A stretch of 64,000 nt of DNA from Mycobacteriaceae bacterium (GTDB taxonomy: Bacteria > Actinomycetota > Actinomycetes > Mycobacteriales > Mycobacteriaceae): the NCBI GenBank assembly GCA_019749805.1, contig JAIEPH010000044.1, positions 1-64,000 on the forward strand, in the 5' to 3' direction. Positions 21,477-36,245 of the stretch are shown here, in pieces; the stretch's first letter is position 1, and each line of letters begins with the position of its first letter. The position numbers and the translations under genes were made by a program. Below the pieces are notes generated by a model. The model was not told the DNA's origin and did no database searches. It saw only the letters and a program-made list of their open reading frames with translations.

Positions 21477-22895
21477 TTACCTCACTTCCAGACTGAGTAG
21501 ATCGTCGACCGTTTCCCGGCGCAGAATCAGGCGGGCTTGCCCGTCGCGGACGGCCACGACCGCCGGGCGACCGATGAGGTTGTAACGGCTTGACATCGAA
21601 TAGCAGTAGGCGCCGGTGGCTGCGACACCGAGCAGATCGCCCGGCCTTATGTCGTCGGGCACCCAGGTGTCGCGCACGACGATATCGCCACTCTCGCAAT
21701 GCTTTCCGACGACACGACCCAGTATCGACGAACCCTCACTGGTGCGCGAGATCAGGCGCACGTCGTATTCAGCGCCGTACAACGAGGTACGGATGTTGTC
21801 GCTCATGCCGCCGTCGACGCTGACGTAGCGGCGGTATCGGTCGGATGCGACCGCCACATCCTTGACGGTGCCGACCTGATAGAGCGTGATGGTGCCCGGG
21901 CCTGCGATCGCGCGACCGGGCTCGACGACCAGTTGGGGGGTGGGCAGCCCGACCGCCGCCGACTCCTCGCGGACGATGGCGCTCAGCTTGGCGGCCAGCT
22001 CGGCGACCGGCGGCGGATCATCCTGTGGCAGATAGGAAATGCCCAGTCCCCCACCGAGGTCGACGATCGACATCTGCGACGTCTTCTCGACGCCGAACTC
22101 GGCGACGATGTCGCGCAGCAGGCCGATGACGCGATGCGCGGCGATCTCGAACCCGGCGACGTCGAAGATCTGCGATCCGATGTGGCTGTGCAGGCCCACC
22201 AGGCGCAGATGGTCGGTTGAAAAGACCCGACGCACGGCGGTCATGGCCGCGCCACTGGCCAGCGACAGGCCGAACTTCTGGTCTTCGTGCGCGGTCGAGA
22301 TGAACTCGTGGGTGTGCGCCTCGACCCCGACGGTGACACGGACCAGGACGTCCTGTACGACACCCGCCGCTCCGGCGATTTCGTCGAGCCGCTCGATCTC
22401 GACCATCGAATCGACCACCACATGTTCAATGCCCGCATTGACGGCGGCAGTCAGCTCTTCGACCGATTTGTTGTTGCCGTGCAATGCAATCCGATCAGCG
22501 GGAAAGCCGGCGTGAAGTGCGACGGCCATCTCCCCGCCGGTCGCGACGTCGAGGGACAACCCCTCTTCAGCGATCCAGCGGGCCACCTCGGAGCACATGA
22601 ACGCCTTGGCGGCGTAGCGCACGTTCTGACCGCCGCCGAATGCCGCAGCGATCTCCCGGCATCGCGACCGGAAGTCGTCCTCGTCGATCACGAACGTCGG
22701 GGTGCCGAACTGCGCGGCGATGTCGACGACGGGCACTCCGGCGATAGATACCACGCCGTCGTCACCGCGAACCGTGTTGCGCGGCCAGACATTCGGCGCG
22801 AGCAGCAAGACCTCGGCCGCCGAGAGCGGACGCGGCGGCGCACCACCGTGGTGGACTTCTTCGGCGTGCCGTGGGCCGGCCGGGTGCGCGATCAC
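21477..22895 (-). CDS. lysA: diaminopimelate decarboxylase
   Basis: PLP motif [16 protein letters not shown]; likely GTG start overlapping the argS stop. Confidence 0.96.
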
Positions 22896-24544
22896 ATCCG
22901 CTCCGGAGCGCTGACGCCGAGGATGCCCAGACCGTTGGCGATGACCTGGCGGGTGGCATCGCACAGCGCCAGGCGCGCGGAGTGCAGATCATTCGGCGCT
23001 TCGTCACCCTGAGGCAACACGCGGCAGGAGTCGTAGAACCGGTGATAGTCACCGGCCAAGTCTTCGAGGTAACGCGAGACGCGGTGCGGTTCACGCAGAG
23101 TCGCAGCGGTTTTCAGCACCCGGGGGAACTCGCCAAGATTGCGGATCAGCACGCCCTCTTTGTCGTGCGTCAGCACCTCGAGGTGCTCGGTACTCGCGGC
23201 AAGGCCGAGCTCGGCGGCGTTACGAGCCAGGGCGGAGAGGCGTGCGTGCGCGTATTGCACGTAGTAGACCGGGTTTTCGTTGGACGCCGACGACCACAAC
23301 GCCAGATCGATGTCGATGGGGGTGTCCACCGAGGAGCGGATCAGCGAGTACCGGGCGGCGTCGACGCCGATCGCGTCCACGAGGTCGTCGAGCGTGATCA
23401 CCGTGCCGGCGCGCTTACTCATCCGCACCGGCCGGCCGTCGCGGACCAGGTTGACCATCTGCCCGATCAGCACCTCGACCGTGGCGGGATCCTCACCCAG
23501 CGAGGACGCGATGGCCTTGAGTCGGGCGATGTAACCGTGGTGGTCAGCGCCGAGCATGTAGATGCACAGGTCGAACCCGCGCTCGCGCTTGTCGAGGTAA
23601 TAGGCGATGTCGGCGGCGACGTAGGCCGGCGCACCGTCGCTCTTGATGACGACGCGGTCCTTGTCGTCGCCGAAGTCGGTGGTGCGCAACCAGACTGCGC
23701 CGTCCTTCTCGTACACCTTGCCCGCCTCGCGCAGCTTGGCGATCGCCTGCTCGACGCGCCCCGACGTGTGCATCGAGTCTTCGTGGGTGTAGACGTCGAA
23801 GTCCGTGCCGAACTCATGCAATGAGGCCTTGATATGACTGAACATCAGGTCGACCCCGATGGCGCGGAAGGTCTCCCGCATTTCGTGGTCGGGCAGGCTC
23901 AGGACGCCGGGTTCCTTGGCAACCACTTGTGCGGCAATGCCCTTGATGTATTCGCCGGCGTAGCCGTCCTCGGGCGTCGGCTCACTCTTGGCCGCCGCGA
24001 TCAGCGAGTTGGAGAACCGGTCGATCTGGGCGCCGTGGTCGTTGAAGTAGTACTCGCGTAGAACGGACGCGCCCTGCGTCGAGAGCAGCCGGCCCAGCGC
24101 GTCACCGACGGCGGCCCAGCGGGTGCCGCCGATGTGGATCGGCCCCGTCGGGTTCGCCGAGACGAACTCCAGGTTGATGTGCTGGGCCTTCAGCTCCTCG
24201 GAGTGCCCGTAGTCCGCGCCCGCGGCGAGTACGTTGTTGACGATCACGCCCTGGGCGGAGGCGTCGAGACGCAGATTGACGAAGCCGGGCCCCGCGAGGT
24301 CGGCGGCGGCGATTCCGTCGGTCTGCGCCAGCGCGGCCGCCAACCAGCCGGCCAGCTCGCGCGGGTTCGCGCCGACCTTTTTGCCCAGCTGGAGGGCTAG
24401 ATTCGTGGCGTAATCGCCATGCTCGGGGTTACGCGGGCGCTCGACGGTGACCGTGTCCGGTAGCGCGGCGCTGTCGAGTCCGTGCTCGGAAAGCACCGCG
24501 GCCGCGGTGGTCTTGAGCAGCTCGGCCAAGTCGGCTGGGGTCAC
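22892..24544 (-). CDS. argS: arginyl-tRNA synthetase
   Basis: [26 protein letters not shown]-type motif; MSKRAGTVI. Confidence 0.97.
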
Positions 24545-24648: not shown

Positions 24649-24724
24649 GCCCCCGTAGCTCAGGGGATAGAGCGTCTGCCTCCGGAGCAGAAGGCCGCAG
24701 GTTCGAATCCTGCCGGGGGCACCA
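24649..24724 (+). tRNA. tRNA-Arg(CCG), CCA encoded
   Basis: 7-bp acceptor GCCCCCG/CGGGGGC, TCTGC-CTCCGGA-GCAGA anticodon arm (CCG), GTTCGAATC T-arm. Confidence 0.97.
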
Positions 24725-26925: not shown

Positions 26926-27540
26926 TTACTCGGCGGGGTCCACTCCTGCGATCGACATGATCAGGTGGTCGATACCGGCGCTCGCCTCGTCACGCGAAGC
27001 CTCGACATCGACCGCATTCGCGACAAACAGCGCTGCCTCATTTGTCGCGGCGTTAATCAGGCGCGCCATCATGCGGGTCGACGGCAACGGTCGCACGTCG
27101 CCAACCTCGATACCGCGTTGCAACAACCGGTCGAGGACATCGAGCGTGTAGCGATCGTCAATCTGATGCCACCGAACGAACCCGAGAACCGACAGCGCAT
27201 CCGTCAGCACCACCTGGCGGATGTAGGGATCCGTGCACCAGGCCAACAGGTTGTGTGCCGAGACCCGGATGATTTCCAGCGGCGAGGTCATGCCGGCGCT
27301 CCACCGCTTTGCTCTGCGCACACCCTCTTCCTCGAACTCGGCGAGCAGGGCCTCAAGAACCGCGGCCTTGTCCTGGAAGTGGTGGTAGAAGGCGCCCTTA
27401 CTGGATTGGGCACGTTTCAGAATCGTGTCGATGCTGCAGCCGTGATAGCCGTGCTCCGCGAACAGCTCGCGGGCGGCGGTGAGGATCGCGGCGCGGGTGG
27501 CGGCCCGGCGTTGCGCCTGGGTGCGTCGCATCTCAGCCAT
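26926..27540 (-). CDS. TetR/AcrR family transcriptional regulator
   Basis: ARELFAEHGYHGCSIDTILKRAQSSKGAFYHHFQDK HTH. Confidence 0.93.
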   Translation of the reverse strand: MAEMRRTQAQRRAATRAAILTAARELFAEHGYHGCSIDTILKRAQSSKGAFYHHFQDKAAVLEALLAEFEEEGVRRAKRWSAGMTSPLEIIRVSAHNLLAWCTDPYIRQVVLTDALSVLGFVRWHQIDDRYTLDVLDRLLQRGIEVGDVRPLPSTRMMARLINAATNEAALFVANAVDVEASRDEASAGIDHLIMSIAGVDPAE

Positions 27541-27555
27541 TCGGCCACCTCATCG

Positions 27556-27578
27556 GTTACAGACTACTAGTCTGTAAC
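27556..27578. promoter_or_regulatory. 23-bp palindromic operator candidate GTTACAGACTA-C-TAGTCTGTAAC
   Basis: Perfect 11-bp arms around one central base, between divergent TetR and membrane-protein genes. Confidence 0.85.
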
Positions 27579-27603
27579 TGACTACCGCGGAAAGTTGGGC
27601 CTG

Positions 27604-28260
27604 ATGTCCCTGATCGACGCGCTCGGACTCGCCAGCGGGATTTTCTGGATCTTGACCTACGCATGCGTGATAAGGCGTGGCCTGCTCGACCGCACGTACG
27701 CGATGCCGTTTCTCGCACTCGCGATGAACATCACCTGGGAGTTCCTGTTTACGTTCGTCTATCCTTCGGTCGGCGGCATCATGCAGGAAAGCATCAACGC
27801 GATCTGGTTCGCCGCCGACATTGCGATCCTCGCGATCTTCTTGAAGTACTGGCGCTCCGATTACCCGAAAAACCTTCCGGAGTCGTACTTCTGGCCCATG
27901 TTCGCCTTCACCTTCGCGATGGTGACCCCCATGATGGTCGCCACCGTTTCAGTGTTCGGGCGCGAGGACGGTTCGGTCTACACGGCGTACATCGATAACT
28001 TGATCATGTCGGTGCTGTTTTTGAGCATGCTTTTGCGCCGCGGTGACAGGCGCGGCCAGAGCATGTGGATCGCCTGGGGCAAGCTGCTGGGCACCGCGAC
28101 CGCCGCCATGTCCCAATACCTCTATGACCCTGGAAACGTTCTCTGGTTGGTGATCTACATCGAGATCCTGATCCTGGATCTTCTCTATGTGTTCCTGCTG
28201 TCGAAAGCCCCGCGGTACCAACGCGAGAAAGTGGCAGCATCAGCAGTCCTACAGCGCTGA
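27604..28260 (+). CDS. polytopic membrane protein resembling PaxB/Pyr4/DmtA-type transmembrane terpene cyclases
   Basis: ~220 aa, multiple TM helices, NITWEF motif and C-terminal LILDLLYVF; TTG 27595 also possible as start. Confidence 0.6.
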   Translation: MSLIDALGLASGIFWILTYACVIRRGLLDRTYAMPFLALAMNITWEFLFTFVYPSVGGIMQESINAIWFAADIAILAIFLKYWRSDYPKNLPESYFWPMFAFTFAMVTPMMVATVSVFGREDGSVYTAYIDNLIMSVLFLSMLLRRGDRRGQSMWIAWGKLLGTATAAMSQYLYDPGNVLWLVIYIEILILDLLYVFLLSKAPRYQREKVAASAVLQR

Positions 28261-28714: not shown

Positions 28715-29698
28715 GTGCCTGCTTCACGTCCCGACTTGCGGCCGGCCTGCGAGGTCGCGCCGTCGCTTCAGTTCCGCACCATTCACGGCTATCGCCGCGC
28801 CTTCCGCATCGCCGGATCGGGCCCCGCGGTGCTGTTGATCCACGGAGTCGGTGACAACTCGACGACCTGGGACAGCGTGCATTCCAAACTTGCGCAACGA
28901 TTTACGGTCATCGCGCCGGACCTCCTGGGCCACGGTGAGTCCGATAAGCCGCGCGCCGACTACTCGCTGGCGTCCTTCGCCAACGGCATGCGCGACCTAC
29001 TGGCCGTACTCGGTATCGACCGCGTCACGCTCGTGGGTCACTCCCTTGGTGGCGGCATCGCCGCTCAGTTCGCCTACCAGTACCCCCACATGGTGGAACG
29101 CATCGTGCTGGTCAGCTGTGGCGGGGTGACGAAGGATGTCACCCCGGCTCTGCGACTGGCAGCAGTGCCGATGGGGGCCGAGTCGCTGGCCGCGTTGCGC
29201 CTCCCGGGCGCGGTCCCCATCCTGAAATCCGCCGGCCGCGCCGCCAAGTCGCTGCTCGGTTCGACCAAGCACGGACGCGATCTGAGCAGCGGTATCGATC
29301 TGCTCGCCCGGCTGGCCGATCCGAAGGCATTGTCGGCGTTCGCGCGGACGGTGCGAGGTGTGGTGGACGGCCGTGGACAGTTCGTCACGATGCTCGATCG
29401 CGCCTACCTCATGCCGTCGATCCCCAAGCAGATCATCTGGGGCGAAGACGACATGGTGATTCCGGCGAGCCACGCGCGGATAGCTCACGAGGCGATGCCC
29501 GAGTCACGCTTGGAGATCTTCGAAAGCTCCGGGCACATGCCCTTTCGCGCCCACCCCGACCGCTTCGTCTCGGTTGTCGAGCGGTTCCTCGACACGACAC
29601 TGCCCGCCGAATACGACCAAACCAGCCTTGGCTCGATGATGCGGGGCTACGTCGGGGAGCACGGCGCTCCCGAGGCGACCGCGTCGATCAGCGCCTGA
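28715..29698 (+). CDS. alpha/beta hydrolase
   Basis: LLIHGVGDNSTTW, LVGHSLGGGIAAQ nucleophile elbow. Confidence 0.92.
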   Translation: MPASRPDLRPACEVAPSLQFRTIHGYRRAFRIAGSGPAVLLIHGVGDNSTTWDSVHSKLAQRFTVIAPDLLGHGESDKPRADYSLASFANGMRDLLAVLGIDRVTLVGHSLGGGIAAQFAYQYPHMVERIVLVSCGGVTKDVTPALRLAAVPMGAESLAALRLPGAVPILKSAGRAAKSLLGSTKHGRDLSSGIDLLARLADPKALSAFARTVRGVVDGRGQFVTMLDRAYLMPSIPKQIIWGEDDMVIPASHARIAHEAMPESRLEIFESSGHMPFRAHPDRFVSVVERFLDTTLPAEYDQTSLGSMMRGYVGEHGAPEATASISA

Positions 29699-31697: not shown

Positions 31698-32141
31698 ATG
31701 AGCGACGGCGCCCGCGAGATCGAGAACCTCGTCTACACCTATGCCGAGCGCCTCGACGCAGGCGACCTCGACGGTGTCGCCGCGCTGTTCGCTCACGGTC
31801 GCATCTGCGGTATGGAGGACGGGCCTCCGGAAACAATCTTCGTTGGCGTTTCCCGGGTGCGGCAGATGTACGAGATGGCAACGCGCCTCTATGAGGACGG
31901 CACCCCGAAGACCAAGCACTTCACCACGAATGTGCGTCTGCAGGTGGATGACGCCGCCGGAACCGCCAACGGCAGCGCGTACTACTGCGTCACTCAGGCA
32001 ACGCCGGACCTGCCGCTGCAGATCATCGTGACCGGCCATTATCGCGACACCTTTCACCGCATCGACGGTGCCTGGTGGTTCGATACACGCACGATGTTCG
32101 TCGACCAGATCGGCGATACCAGCCATCACCTGAAGTTCTGA
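31698..32141 (+). CDS. SnoaL-like / NTF2-like polyketide cyclase-type protein
   Basis: MSDGAREIENLVYTYAERLDAGDLDGVAALF... Confidence 0.88.
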   Translation: MSDGAREIENLVYTYAERLDAGDLDGVAALFAHGRICGMEDGPPETIFVGVSRVRQMYEMATRLYEDGTPKTKHFTTNVRLQVDDAAGTANGSAYYCVTQATPDLPLQIIVTGHYRDTFHRIDGAWWFDTRTMFVDQIGDTSHHLKF

Positions 32142-32145
32142 TCCG

Positions 32146-33336
32146 GTGGACGATCCATTTCGCGCGACTGGACTCGCGACCGCCGCGCAGCGGAAGGAAG
32201 GCCTCGACGATTGGGGCCCGGTGCCGTTCGAGGAGCCGCTGGGAGTGCTCGCCGAGAGCTACTCGTCGGCGGATCTCAACGACATCGGCGTACACATCCT
32301 CCGTTCGGGCCTCATCCACAGCCTGCGAATGCGTCTGCGTGCTCAAGAGTGGATTCGGCGCCATCCCGAGATCACCGACGAGGTCATCGTCGCGCCGATC
32401 GTGGTGGTCGGCATGATGCGCAGTGGAACCACCCTGCTGCAACGGCTTCTCGCCGCCGACGACCGTTTCCACTGCGCGTACGGCTGGGAGGTGGTCGAGG
32501 TCGCGCCCCGGCTCGATTACAACTGGTCAGCCCAGGCGGATGACCCACGGATCGCGATCAGCGAGAAGCGCGAAGCGACGTCGCGTGAACTCGCCCCCGT
32601 CTTGTTCTCCATCCACCCGATGTATGCCCGCGAACCCGAAGAGGAGATCGTCTTCCTCTCCGATGCGTTTCTGTCGCACGTACCGGAGTCCGGCGCGAAC
32701 GTACCGCGATACCGCGCGTGGATCGACGAGCAGGACTTCACGCCGGCCTATGCATACCTGCACAGGATGTTGCAGTTTCTTCAGTGGCAGAAGCGGCAAC
32801 GCGGCTTGACGACGGGTCGCTGGGTGCTCAAATCCCCTGCGCATCTTGGATATCTGGATACATTGCGGGCCCACTTCCCCGACCTGCACCTGGTCCACAT
32901 GCACCGCGACCCCAGGGAGACGATCCCCTCCGGGGCCAGCCTCAACGCGACACTGCACGCCATGCACTCCGACGAGGTAGACCCCCGCCGTGTCGGCGCC
33001 CAGTGGCTACAACGGATGGGCTGGACCAACGACCGTGCGATGACGTCCCGCGCGGGATGGAGCGACGAGGTGCAGCGTTGTACCGACATCGAGTTCACCG
33101 ACGCGGTGGCCGATCCGATCGGGCAGGTCGCCCGTGTCTATCAAGCGATCGGCGCGACATTGTCCTCCGAAGCCGAATCCGCCATGCGCCGTTGGCTTGC
33201 GGAGCGCCCCCGCGAACCGGCCCGCCCGCCGTACTCGGCGGAGGACTTCGGGTTGAGCGATGCCCAGATCGGTGAACGCTTCGCCGATTACAACTCTCGT
33301 TTTCGCGCAGCAGCGAACACCCCGAGGAGGATGTGA
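32146..33336 (+). CDS. sulfotransferase family protein
   Basis: PAPS-binding loop VVVGMMRSGTTLLQRLLAAD; WVLKSPAHLGYLDTL; HMHRDPRETIPS. Confidence 0.9.
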   Translation: MDDPFRATGLATAAQRKEGLDDWGPVPFEEPLGVLAESYSSADLNDIGVHILRSGLIHSLRMRLRAQEWIRRHPEITDEVIVAPIVVVGMMRSGTTLLQRLLAADDRFHCAYGWEVVEVAPRLDYNWSAQADDPRIAISEKREATSRELAPVLFSIHPMYAREPEEEIVFLSDAFLSHVPESGANVPRYRAWIDEQDFTPAYAYLHRMLQFLQWQKRQRGLTTGRWVLKSPAHLGYLDTLRAHFPDLHLVHMHRDPRETIPSGASLNATLHAMHSDEVDPRRVGAQWLQRMGWTNDRAMTSRAGWSDEVQRCTDIEFTDAVADPIGQVARVYQAIGATLSSEAESAMRRWLAERPREPARPPYSAEDFGLSDAQIGERFADYNSRFRAAANTPRRM

Positions 33337-34589
33337 TGTCCGGTTTCGCGGGCGACCCGGTGGCCACGGCGTCGCAACATAACCAGGAGCTTGCCGCGTT
33401 GGAGCTCATGGAGCATCCCACCGTCAAAGCCGCGTACCGCAGCGTTGCCGAGACATGGCTTAGTCGGGCCAAGGCATCCGAAGCAATGCGGCAGCGGTTC
33501 GACGACGCGTTCGCCGAGGTGATGTTCTCGGCCGCAGTGTGGTCCTCCAATCAGGACAAACTGCGACCCAAGGTCAGCTGCATCACCAGGATCGGCCACC
33601 CGGTGGCGGGACGCGCCATTCCTGGATCACGTTGGGGCATCGACAATCCGGACAGCGTGTACAGGGTGATCCCCATCTCTGGTGACGAGCGCTATGAGAT
33701 TCACGGTCGCGTCGGCGCCAATCGTATGACGGAGAACTACTTCACACTCTGGGATGCCAACATGGGTACGGTCGCGGTGCTCAACGGTCGCACGATGGAG
33801 GTCGACGCGGAGGGTTCGTTCGTCGTCACGGTCGACTCCGACCCCGCCAACGGGCGTCCCAACCACGTACAAACGACGCCGGAGGCCCATGAGTTCTACA
33901 TCCGCGATGTGCTGCTCAACTGGGACCGCGACGACCCGAATCATCTCAGCGTGCAGCGGCTTGGCCCAGAGCCCGCGACACCGCCGCGCACACTCGACGA
34001 ACAGGCCGATGCCGCCGCGGCGATGATGGCGTACTTCGCCAACTTCACCGGAAAACTCAGCCACGGCGTCTACAAGATGGCGCCCAACAATTTCAACCTC
34101 GCGTGGTCCGCCGATCGTGTCGGCGCGATGCGCAACCAGGTGTACGTGATGGGTCGATTCGAGTTGAATCCCGGCGAAGCGTTCGTCGTCGACGTGAGTG
34201 ACGGCGGGGCCGAGTACTTCACCGTGCCGTTGAGCAACATCTGGGGCACCACGTTGGAGATCGTGAACCGCACGGGCAGCCTCAACAAGGCGCAGTCGGT
34301 ACCGAACGAAGACGGCACCTACACCTACGTGATCGCCCCTACCGATCCCGGCGTCGCGAACTGGATCGACTCCGACGGCCTGCACGAGGCCATCCTGACC
34401 CTGCGGATGGCCGAATTCGGCGGCGACGGGCCGACGGAGGATCTGGGCGCTCGCGGACGGGTGGTGAAACTCGACGACCTCGACAAGGAGGTGCCGTCGC
34501 TGCGCCGAGTGTCCACCGCAGAGCGGGCCGCCGAGCTCGCCGAGCGCCGAGCAGCATATCTGCGCCGGCTACCCGAAGGGACGAATTGA
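33333..34589 (+). CDS. DUF1214-like hypothetical protein
   Basis: NYFTLWDANMGTVAVLNGRTM..., coupled to flanking genes. Confidence 0.7.
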   Translation: MMSGFAGDPVATASQHNQELAALELMEHPTVKAAYRSVAETWLSRAKASEAMRQRFDDAFAEVMFSAAVWSSNQDKLRPKVSCITRIGHPVAGRAIPGSRWGIDNPDSVYRVIPISGDERYEIHGRVGANRMTENYFTLWDANMGTVAVLNGRTMEVDAEGSFVVTVDSDPANGRPNHVQTTPEAHEFYIRDVLLNWDRDDPNHLSVQRLGPEPATPPRTLDEQADAAAAMMAYFANFTGKLSHGVYKMAPNNFNLAWSADRVGAMRNQVYVMGRFELNPGEAFVVDVSDGGAEYFTVPLSNIWGTTLEIVNRTGSLNKAQSVPNEDGTYTYVIAPTDPGVANWIDSDGLHEAILTLRMAEFGGDGPTEDLGARGRVVKLDDLDKEVPSLRRVSTAERAAELAERRAAYLRRLPEGTN

Positions 34590-34590
34590 C

Positions 34591-35424
34591 ATGGGCCGCT
34601 GGCTGATCACCGGATGCTCCACGGGTATCGGACGAGAAATCTGTCGGGCCGCGCTGGAGGCCGGCCACTCCGTGGTGGTGACGGCGCGGCGCACAGACAC
34701 GGTGGCTGACTTCGCCGACGCGTATGGTGTGCGCGCCGCCGTGGTCGCATTGGACGTCACCGACAAGGACCAGATCGCCTCGGCGGTCCAAACGGCCGAC
34801 CAAGCATTCGGCGGGATCGACGTTCTGGTCAACAATGCGGGCAACGGTTACCTGTCCGCGATCGAAGAGGGTGAGGACGAAAAAGTTCGTAAGCTCTTCG
34901 ACACCAACTACTTCGGTGTCGTCGACACCATCAAAGCGGTGCTCCCCCAGATGCGTGGCCGCCAGTCCGGGCACATCGTCAACATCTCGTCCATGACGGG
35001 TCTGGTGGCCAATCCGCCGAATGCGTATTACTCGTCGACCAAGTTCGCGCTCGAGGCGCTGACCGAAGCCCTGGCGCAGGAGGTCAAACCGCTCGGCATT
35101 AAGGTCACCGCGATCGAACCGGGCGCGTTCCGCACCGACTGGGCCGCCCGGTCGATGTGGGAATCCTCCACTCCGATAAGTGATTACGATGAGAATGTCG
35201 GCGCGCGCAAGACGATGATCAAGGAATTCGCAAACCATCTTCCGGGCGACCCGCGCAAGGTCGCAGAAGCGGTGCTGATGGTGACCGAACTCGATGACCC
35301 ACCGTTGCGGCTCCTCCTCGGACGCGACGTGCTCAAGGCGGTACGCGACAAGCTCGCCGCGTTCTCCGCCTCGATCGACGAGTGGGAGTCCGTCACCAAA
35401 GACGTCAACTTCGGCAAGGAGTGA
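34591..35424 (+). CDS. short-chain dehydrogenase/reductase
   Basis: WLITGCSTGIGREI; YYSSTKFALE. Confidence 0.93.
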   Translation: MGRWLITGCSTGIGREICRAALEAGHSVVVTARRTDTVADFADAYGVRAAVVALDVTDKDQIASAVQTADQAFGGIDVLVNNAGNGYLSAIEEGEDEKVRKLFDTNYFGVVDTIKAVLPQMRGRQSGHIVNISSMTGLVANPPNAYYSSTKFALEALTEALAQEVKPLGIKVTAIEPGAFRTDWAARSMWESSTPISDYDENVGARKTMIKEFANHLPGDPRKVAEAVLMVTELDDPPLRLLLGRDVLKAVRDKLAAFSASIDEWESVTKDVNFGKE

Positions 35425-36245
35425 TGGTGAGCAGCCTCGATGACAGGGTCGCGCTCATCACCGGTGCCGCCAGGGGGATGGGCCGTGCGCACGCGGTCAG
35501 ACTCGCTGGAGAGGGCGCAGACATCATCGCCATCGACATCTGCGCCGACTTCGAATCCACCGACTATCCCGGCGCGACGGCCGCTGACCTCGCCGAAACA
35601 GCCAGGCTGGTCGAGGCGCAAGGGCGCCGGATCCTCCTGCGCGAGGCCGACGTTCGCGATGCCGACGCGATGGACGCCGTCGTCGCTGACGGAATGTCCG
35701 AATTCGGCCGCATCGACATCGTCCTTGCCAATGCGGGCATCATCCGGGTGACCGACTGCGAGCATCGGCGTCAAACGTTCCGAGACATCGTCGAGGTGAA
35801 CCTCGTCGGCGCCTGGAACACCGTCGACGCCGCGATACCGGCGCTGATCTCCGGCGGTCGCGGCGGATCAATCGTGCTGACGAGTTCGACGCAGGGGATC
35901 AAAGCGCTCGGTACCGACCGCGCGGGTCCGCAGGCCTATGCGGCATCCAAGCGTGCACTCGTGGCGCTGATGCAGGGCTGGGCGACTCAGCTCGCTCCCC
36001 ACTCCATCCGGGTGAACACCATTCACCCGAGCGGCGTGGCCACCGACATGATCCTCAATGACGCGACGATGCAACTCGTTGCCGCCGAGGATCCTTGGAT
36101 CGTCGCGCAACAGAACGCGCTGCCGATCCCGCTGTTGCAACCCGAGGACATCGCAGGAGCGGTGGCGTGGCTGGTCTCAGATGCCGGTCAGTTCATCACA
36201 GGCACTTCATGGCCGCTCGACGCGGGGTTCATGCTGCGCAATTAG
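35424..36245 (+). CDS. mycofactocin-coupled-type SDR family oxidoreductase
   Basis: RVALITGAARGMGRAHAVRLAGEGADIIAIDIC with long insert typical of that subfamily; ATG 35424. Confidence 0.85.
   Translation: MVSSLDDRVALITGAARGMGRAHAVRLAGEGADIIAIDICADFESTDYPGATAADLAETARLVEAQGRRILLREADVRDADAMDAVVADGMSEFGRIDIVLANAGIIRVTDCEHRRQTFRDIVEVNLVGAWNTVDAAIPALISGGRGGSIVLTSSTQGIKALGTDRAGPQAYAASKRALVALMQGWATQLAPHSIRVNTIHPSGVATDMILNDATMQLVAAEDPWIVAQQNALPIPLLQPEDIAGAVAWLVSDAGQFITGTSWPLDAGFMLRN

Follow-up and report, generated by a model that had tools for sequence, protein, structure and literature searches.

A mycobacterial candidate of the Pyr4-like transmembrane terpene cyclase family, divergent from a TetR-family gene across a palindrome found once per genome

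Background

What does a gene for a Pyr4-like transmembrane terpene cyclase (TMTC) do in a mycobacterium when no prenyltransferase gene lies beside it? Work on Pyr4-like proteins of bacteria has been confined almost entirely to those encoded in terpenoid gene clusters; a 2026 survey of 1107 bacterial Pyr4-like sequences kept 264 for their nearby terpenoid genes and set 843 aside (PMC13307353). A first-pass annotation of a 64,000-nucleotide stretch of DNA from a Mycobacteriaceae bacterium (the whole stretch is called the window below) had proposed an open reading frame at 27604-28260, forward strand, as a Pyr4/PaxB/DmtA-like candidate. In this study, we report the family assignment, conserved residues, distribution and genomic setting of this gene. 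The new observation is that, in one set of species, a TetR-family gene is divergent from the TMTC gene across a 23-bp palindrome with a core present once per genome.

Results and discussion

Gene, protein and family assignment

The open reading frame begins either with an ATG at 27604, giving a protein of 218 aa, or with an in-frame TTG at 27595, giving 221 aa. Orthologues begin at the position of 27604 (with ATG, or GTG in L031 and L032), even where the upstream sequence contains no TTG, and residues were therefore numbered from there; the acids first listed from the TTG as E49 and D195 are thus E46 and D192. Both stretches that had drawn attention to the protein, ALAMNITWEFLFTFV and IEILILDLLYVFLL, were found in it. 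Its description as polytopic agrees with the AlphaFold model, which predicts seven membrane passes made by five single helices and one long element (residues 93-146) that crosses twice. Members of the family have about 220-270 aa and seven membrane helices, and the 218-aa protein fits this description.

A profile search, which had been named as one of two tests that could refute the proposal, returned the Pyr4-like family and no other. The protein matched Pfam PF25129 (Pyr4-like transmembrane terpene cyclases) with an E value of 2.4e-29 and 103 bits against a cut-off of 27, nearly over the full length (residues 3-200 on profile positions 16-222 of 227). The sole other Pfam entry, DUF2231, scored under its own cut-off (E 0.054). 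NCBIfam contained no model for the protein, and no sequence relative was found in the PDB, either with the single sequence or with a profile. Motif look-alikes arise among small polytopic proteins, and the match could in principle be a coincidence in an unrelated membrane protein; this explanation is already refuted, with a probability close to nil, by the margin over the cut-off of a curated profile and by 19 invariant columns in an alignment of ten diverse family members. Judged from its sequence, the protein almost certainly belongs to the Pyr4-like family. The curated match, the orthologues and a low dN/dS ratio (see below) identify a real gene, and the profile match together with the invariance of the two acids (see below), which was the second of the refuting tests, supports the original reading, for which "candidate" was the right word.

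Conserved residues and comparison with DmtA1

In an alignment of 44 family members, Y19 (codon 27658-27660, forward strand as are all codons given here), E46 (27739-27741), which is the proposed proton donor, and D192 (28177-28179) were invariant (44/44), and D72 (27817-27819) was Asp in 39 members and Asn in 5. The first-pass annotation had rightly singled out E46 and D192, which were likewise invariant in 37/37 members of our first alignment; it had missed Y19 and D72, as well as the dedicated regulator and operator described below. These four residues match Y33, E60, D94 and D214 of DmtA1, the drimentine cyclase of Streptomyces youssoufiensis, which shares the Pfam family. Mutants Y33A/F and E60A/Q of DmtA1 lost all activity, D94A failed to complement and D214A retained traces of activity (PMC6173783). 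The acidic pair is also conserved in the fungal proteins Pyr4, for which PF25129 is named, and PaxB (PMC6173783).

The correspondence was followed through a DmtA-type protein of a Streptomyces locus (L120), which shares 30% identity with the TMTC protein across 218 columns and has its catalytic residues at matching positions. Its Y21, E48, D82 and D202 align with Y19, E46, D72 and D192, and their spacings (27, 34 and 120) are exactly those of Y33, E60, D94 and D214 in DmtA1. L120 is a dmt-type locus, in which the cyclase gene is followed by a cyclodipeptide synthase gene (PF16715, E 1e-22 on the first 60 residues), and a 311-aa protein stands in place of DmtC, judged by length and position only.

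Alignment of D72 with D82 of L120, the D94 equivalent of the DmtA subgroup, is not diagnostic of that subgroup because D72 is common across the whole family. The TMTC protein is not placed in the DmtA subgroup: its alignment has hydrophobic residues around position 113 and no counterpart of DmtA1 E133, and its gene stands alone, whereas the neighbours of the DmtA gene encode a cyclodipeptide synthase and a prenyltransferase of phytoene-synthase-like type. The mycobacterial protein also differs from DmtA in two extra membrane acids, D131 (codon 27994-27996) and E187 (28162-28164). D131 was present in all mycobacterial rows and in a Bacteroidales member (L030), most other rows having Gln or a hydrophobic residue, and E187 was found in 14/14 mycobacterial rows and in 0 other rows of the 44-row alignment.

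Predicted fold

The top nine PDB fold matches of the AlphaFold model (pLDDT 79, pTM 0.74) were all structures of SWEET transporters, cystinosin or the KDEL receptor (Foldseek probability 0.8-1.0, TM 0.43-0.57), the best E value, from this one model, being only 0.008 and not significant. A search of BFVD gave only weak PQ-loop matches, and the model of the Bacteroidales protein L030 was poor (pLDDT 59.5) and was left out of the comparison. A weak internal three-helix repeat was detected (E 0.013), which 2/200 column shuffles equalled, a figure that overstates the support because such shuffles destroy helix periodicity; rotated copies scored equally high. D72 and D192 occupy equivalent places of this possible, weakly supported repeat. 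The Pyr4-family fold is possibly closest to the 3+1+3 fold of SWEET, cystinosin and the KDEL receptor, and may be a transporter-type fold turned enzyme. No paper was found in the open-access literature that connects Pyr4-like cyclases either with mycobacteria or with the PQ-loop fold.

It is mainly this fold resemblance that keeps a transporter-like role under consideration. The protein could have the Pyr4 fold and residues and yet act as a small membrane carrier, a flippase or a lipid- or xenobiotic-handling protein, induced through the TetR regulator by a hydrophobic compound. The fold matches and the repeat point this way, but the matches are not significant, the residues that are conserved are those tied to cyclisation by the DmtA1 mutagenesis, and the conserved framework is common to members from proven cyclase clusters. 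We consider a carrier of this kind rather unlikely.

TetR-family regulator and putative operator

Just upstream of the TMTC gene and divergent from it lies a gene for a TetR-family repressor (26926-27540, reverse strand; PF00440 and PF21351), an arrangement, here called context A, that was found in the window and at L019, L020, L029 and L031-L034. The closest solved structures of the regulator are those of Rv0078/EthR2 (5wm9, E 1.9e-27; 5icj, E 2.5e-27; residues 4-193). Between the two start codons, at 27556-27578, lies the putative operator GTTACAGACTACTAGTCTGTAAC, a perfect 23-bp palindrome of 11+1+11 bp (GTTACAGACTA-C-TAGTCTGTAAC), of which 0 are expected in the window. The palindrome core is kept in all context-A species, with one arm mismatch in L031 and L033, and the flanking bases change in pairs in several of them (L020: ATGTAGATACAGACTACTAGTCTGTATCTACAT).

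With up to 3 mismatches allowed, the core has one site in the 6.48-Mb genome; six further context-A genomes likewise had exactly one apiece, and seven genomes that lack the arrangement had none. No wider regulon through further palindrome sites was seen in the own genome or in the six others. Because of the divergent TetR gene and a core that occurs once per genome, the context-A TMTC gene appears to form a single-gene unit under private control. A lone gene divergent from an EthR2-like TetR gene also recalls inducible efflux or detoxification units, which fits a carrier.

Rv0078 of M. tuberculosis has a large hydrophobic ligand pocket, and its 21-bp binding site consists of two 10-bp inverted repeats and overlaps both start sites of a divergent pair (PMC6016246). 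The Rv0078/EthR2-Rv0077c pair resembles the present locus in having a homologous TetR gene divergent from its target and the same operator layout as 27557-27577; however, the target Rv0077c is not a membrane cyclase, and the half-site sequences agree only partly. With full-length homology and a predicted 21-bp, 10+1+10 operator between divergent genes, the regulator is Rv0078/EthR2-like. By analogy, it would repress itself and the TMTC gene, as judged from the gene arrangement only, and would respond to a hydrophobic ligand.

Several further genes were noted around the site. The argS gene (22892-24544, reverse strand), which lies outside the TMTC unit, is the landmark of a site common to most context-A loci and was found near the TMTC locus in the window and at L019, L020, L022, L029, L032 and L034. 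A tRNA-Arg(CCG) gene (24649-24724) lies just upstream of argS, near the context-A site, and is a possible reason for the variability of the region. The TetR gene is adjoined by a gene for a GIY-YIG domain protein (PF20815; 26159-26869, reverse strand), with relatives near the locus in L019, L020 and L034. An alpha/beta hydrolase gene (28715-29698 in the window) occurs within about 3.5 kb of the TMTC gene in the window, L019, L033 and L034; its side differs between loci, and the L034 copy is interrupted by a transposase-like ORF. A block at 31698-36245 (SnoaL, sulfotransferase, DUF1214-like, SDR and SDR genes), kept in M. tusciae, M. neglectum and L034, is unrelated to the TMTC finding.

A second genomic setting

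At L021, L023-L028 and L035 (context B), the TMTC gene has neither the TetR gene nor the palindrome. It is divergent from an operon that variably encodes an isochorismatase-like hydrolase, a DUF1348/SnoaL protein, a PNPOx-like flavoprotein and a MOSC/ferredoxin-reductase fusion, and on its other side most of the context-B loci have a MarR gene and an opposing SDR gene. L022 keeps the argS site, but the TetR gene survives there only as remnants and just half of the palindrome is left. Context-B proteins form a clade within the mycobacterial group (100/98), and since they nest inside it, context B probably derives from context A. Two unrelated regulatory settings round a lone TMTC gene argue for a self-contained functional unit. 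The context-B neighbours, none of them terpenoid genes, would suit a carrier as well.

Distribution and inheritance

The TMTC gene is single-copy in its genome, and 16/396 genomes of the genus carry a match above the family cut-off. Orthologues are 79-97% identical across at least 16 mycobacterial genomes, named carriers including M. tusciae (97% identity), M. neglectum, M. sphagni, M. vinylchloridicum, M. rhodesiae and M. montefiorense. The dN/dS ratio of 0.08-0.23, about 0.1, corresponds to purifying selection and therefore to a working gene. Among six argS-linked relatives, TMTC identity tracks that of argS (0.97/0.97, 0.91/0.91; Spearman 0.63 over 21 pairs), as of an inherited and maintained gene. 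A recent horizontal gain within mycobacteria was considered and rejected, because the argS-like similarity favours inheritance with many losses; the comparison suggests vertical inheritance with repeated loss and not recent transfer.

Prenyltransferases in the window and in the genome

The earlier observation that no prenyltransferase is adjacent was borne out, as no member of the prenyltransferase, terpene synthase or P450 families was found among the window ORFs scanned. Bacterial meroterpenoid clusters are recognised by a neighbouring prenyltransferase, polyprenyl synthase or P450/epoxidase, and the TMTC locus has none of these. A genome search that covered UbiA, SQS/PSY and polyprenyl synthase families and left out ABBA/DMATS-type enzymes found three UbiA homologues (one strong CtaB-like match and two others), one SQS/PSY protein (phytoene synthase) and three polyprenyl synthases, all on other contigs; the single SQS/PSY gene lies near a polyprenyl synthase gene. 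Going by the scores and by the usual mycobacterial set, we take the three UbiA proteins to be heme O synthase, MenA and decaprenyl-phosphoribose synthase. When UbiA homologues were counted in 15 carriers and in 15 non-carriers, no prenyltransferase emerged that goes with the TMTC gene. Most of the context-B genomes searched (G068, G161, G313, G337, G339, G347) had a divergent UbiA homologue as their fourth (E 1e-9 to 1e-12), which is not linked to the TMTC gene; it was also seen in two non-carriers, and in none of the context-A genomes searched.

The TMTC protein might catalyse a single step in a meroterpenoid pathway for which the remaining genes are located at other sites in the genome. A precedent is the drimentine F methyltransferase gene, which was not found beside the dmt1 locus (PMC6173783), and the fourth UbiA homologue of several context-B genomes could serve such a pathway. 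But that homologue is found in non-carriers too and did not turn up in any context-A genome searched, and the genome of the window has three UbiA genes only and its single SQS/PSY gene near a polyprenyl synthase gene. A pathway split in this way thus appears improbable.

Place in the family

The mycobacterial proteins form one clade (100/100) on a long stem in a tree of 44 members, apart from the zig-type (L069, L070) and tryptophan-dioxygenase-type (L066, L072, L075, L119) proteins and from the DmtA-type protein. The nearest group (L067, L121-L123, L126), placed by midpoint rooting and with a support of only 93/75, is common in Streptomyces and has no terpenoid neighbours. We know of no activity for any mycobacterial member or for the clade nearest to it. 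The bacterial Pyr4-like cyclases XiaH, TylF, GroF and ZigF belong to the same family, and proton-initiated cyclisation has been proposed for them (PMC13307353); they are encoded in meroterpenoid or triterpenoid clusters, whereas the mycobacterial clade branches apart. Fungal Pyr4 and PaxB also sit in meroterpenoid clusters, unlike the mycobacterial gene.

Elsewhere, in one actinobacterial family (L060-L065), a stand-alone Pyr4-like gene lies between a GcvT-like gene and suf genes, an arrangement conserved across genera in which no terpenoid genes were seen. As both these loci and the nearest Streptomyces group are without terpenoid neighbours, stand-alone members appear to be common, which agrees with the survey in PMC13307353; the mycobacterial clade appears to fall among its sequences without nearby terpenoid genes.

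Other Pyr4-like loci were observed in passing. For these and the other distant loci in this report, neighbours are named from the lengths and the starts of their sequences unless a Pfam match is given. In one group (L037, L115, L117, L127, L128), an AMP-ligase-like gene (~535 aa) repeatedly lies just before the Pyr4-like gene; L037 and L115 have a flavin amine-oxidase-like gene after it, L117 adds polyprenyl-synthase-like and IspH-like genes, and the set looks like a recurrent uncharacterised cluster. At L066, L072, L075, L119 and L130, the Pyr4-like protein is accompanied by polyprenyl-synthase-like, P450-like, flavin monooxygenase-like and SnoaL-like genes and, where the stretch reaches, by a tryptophan-dioxygenase-like gene; at least 4 of the five have Asn at the D72 position. 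At L131, which has a polyprenyl-synthase-like gene close by, the Pyr4-like domain forms the C-terminal end of a 513-aa ORF that carries an additional part at its N-terminus.

Proposed function

We propose, with a probability of roughly 0.55, that the TMTC protein cyclises, by Bronsted-acid catalysis, the prenyl chain of an isoprenoid lipid that other loci supply; a cyclase function in any form is more probable than not. E46, helped by D72, D192 and Y19, would protonate a prenyl chain at an alkene (or epoxide) within the membrane and so start carbocation ring closure. The substrate is most likely made elsewhere and protonated directly at the alkene, because no prenyltransferase or epoxidase gene is nearby and the D72 position, that of D94 in the alkene-protonating cyclase DmtA1 (PMC6173783), is kept; activation of an alkene rather than an epoxide is what we infer from this. 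In the lineage of the window, the EthR2-like TetR protein would sit on the palindrome and keep both genes silent until released by a hydrophobic ligand. A menaquinone-type quinol is our guess for the substrate, as it is the only UbiA-made aromatic prenyl lipid that the genome appears to offer.

Against a cyclase stand the separation of the mycobacterial clade from all gene-cluster-associated members, the lack of terpenoid neighbours in its nearest group, the missing E133 counterpart and a fold most like those of transporters and receptors; the acids could have been retained for transport instead of cyclisation.

Conclusions

The mycobacterial protein is, by its sequence, a further member of a family known from fungal and Streptomyces natural products with prenyl-derived rings. 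A single-gene TMTC unit that has a putative repressor to itself and a lone operator in each genome would offer a clean entry point to the substrate without rebuilding a pathway. More speculatively, and with low odds, the gene may belong to a long-established mycobacterial line of membrane cyclases that stand alone and are induced by a ligand, and whose task is to remodel a resident polyprenyl lipid, for example by closing rings in the menaquinone side chain, instead of making a secondary metabolite. If so, this would be a terpene cyclase serving membrane or redox physiology.
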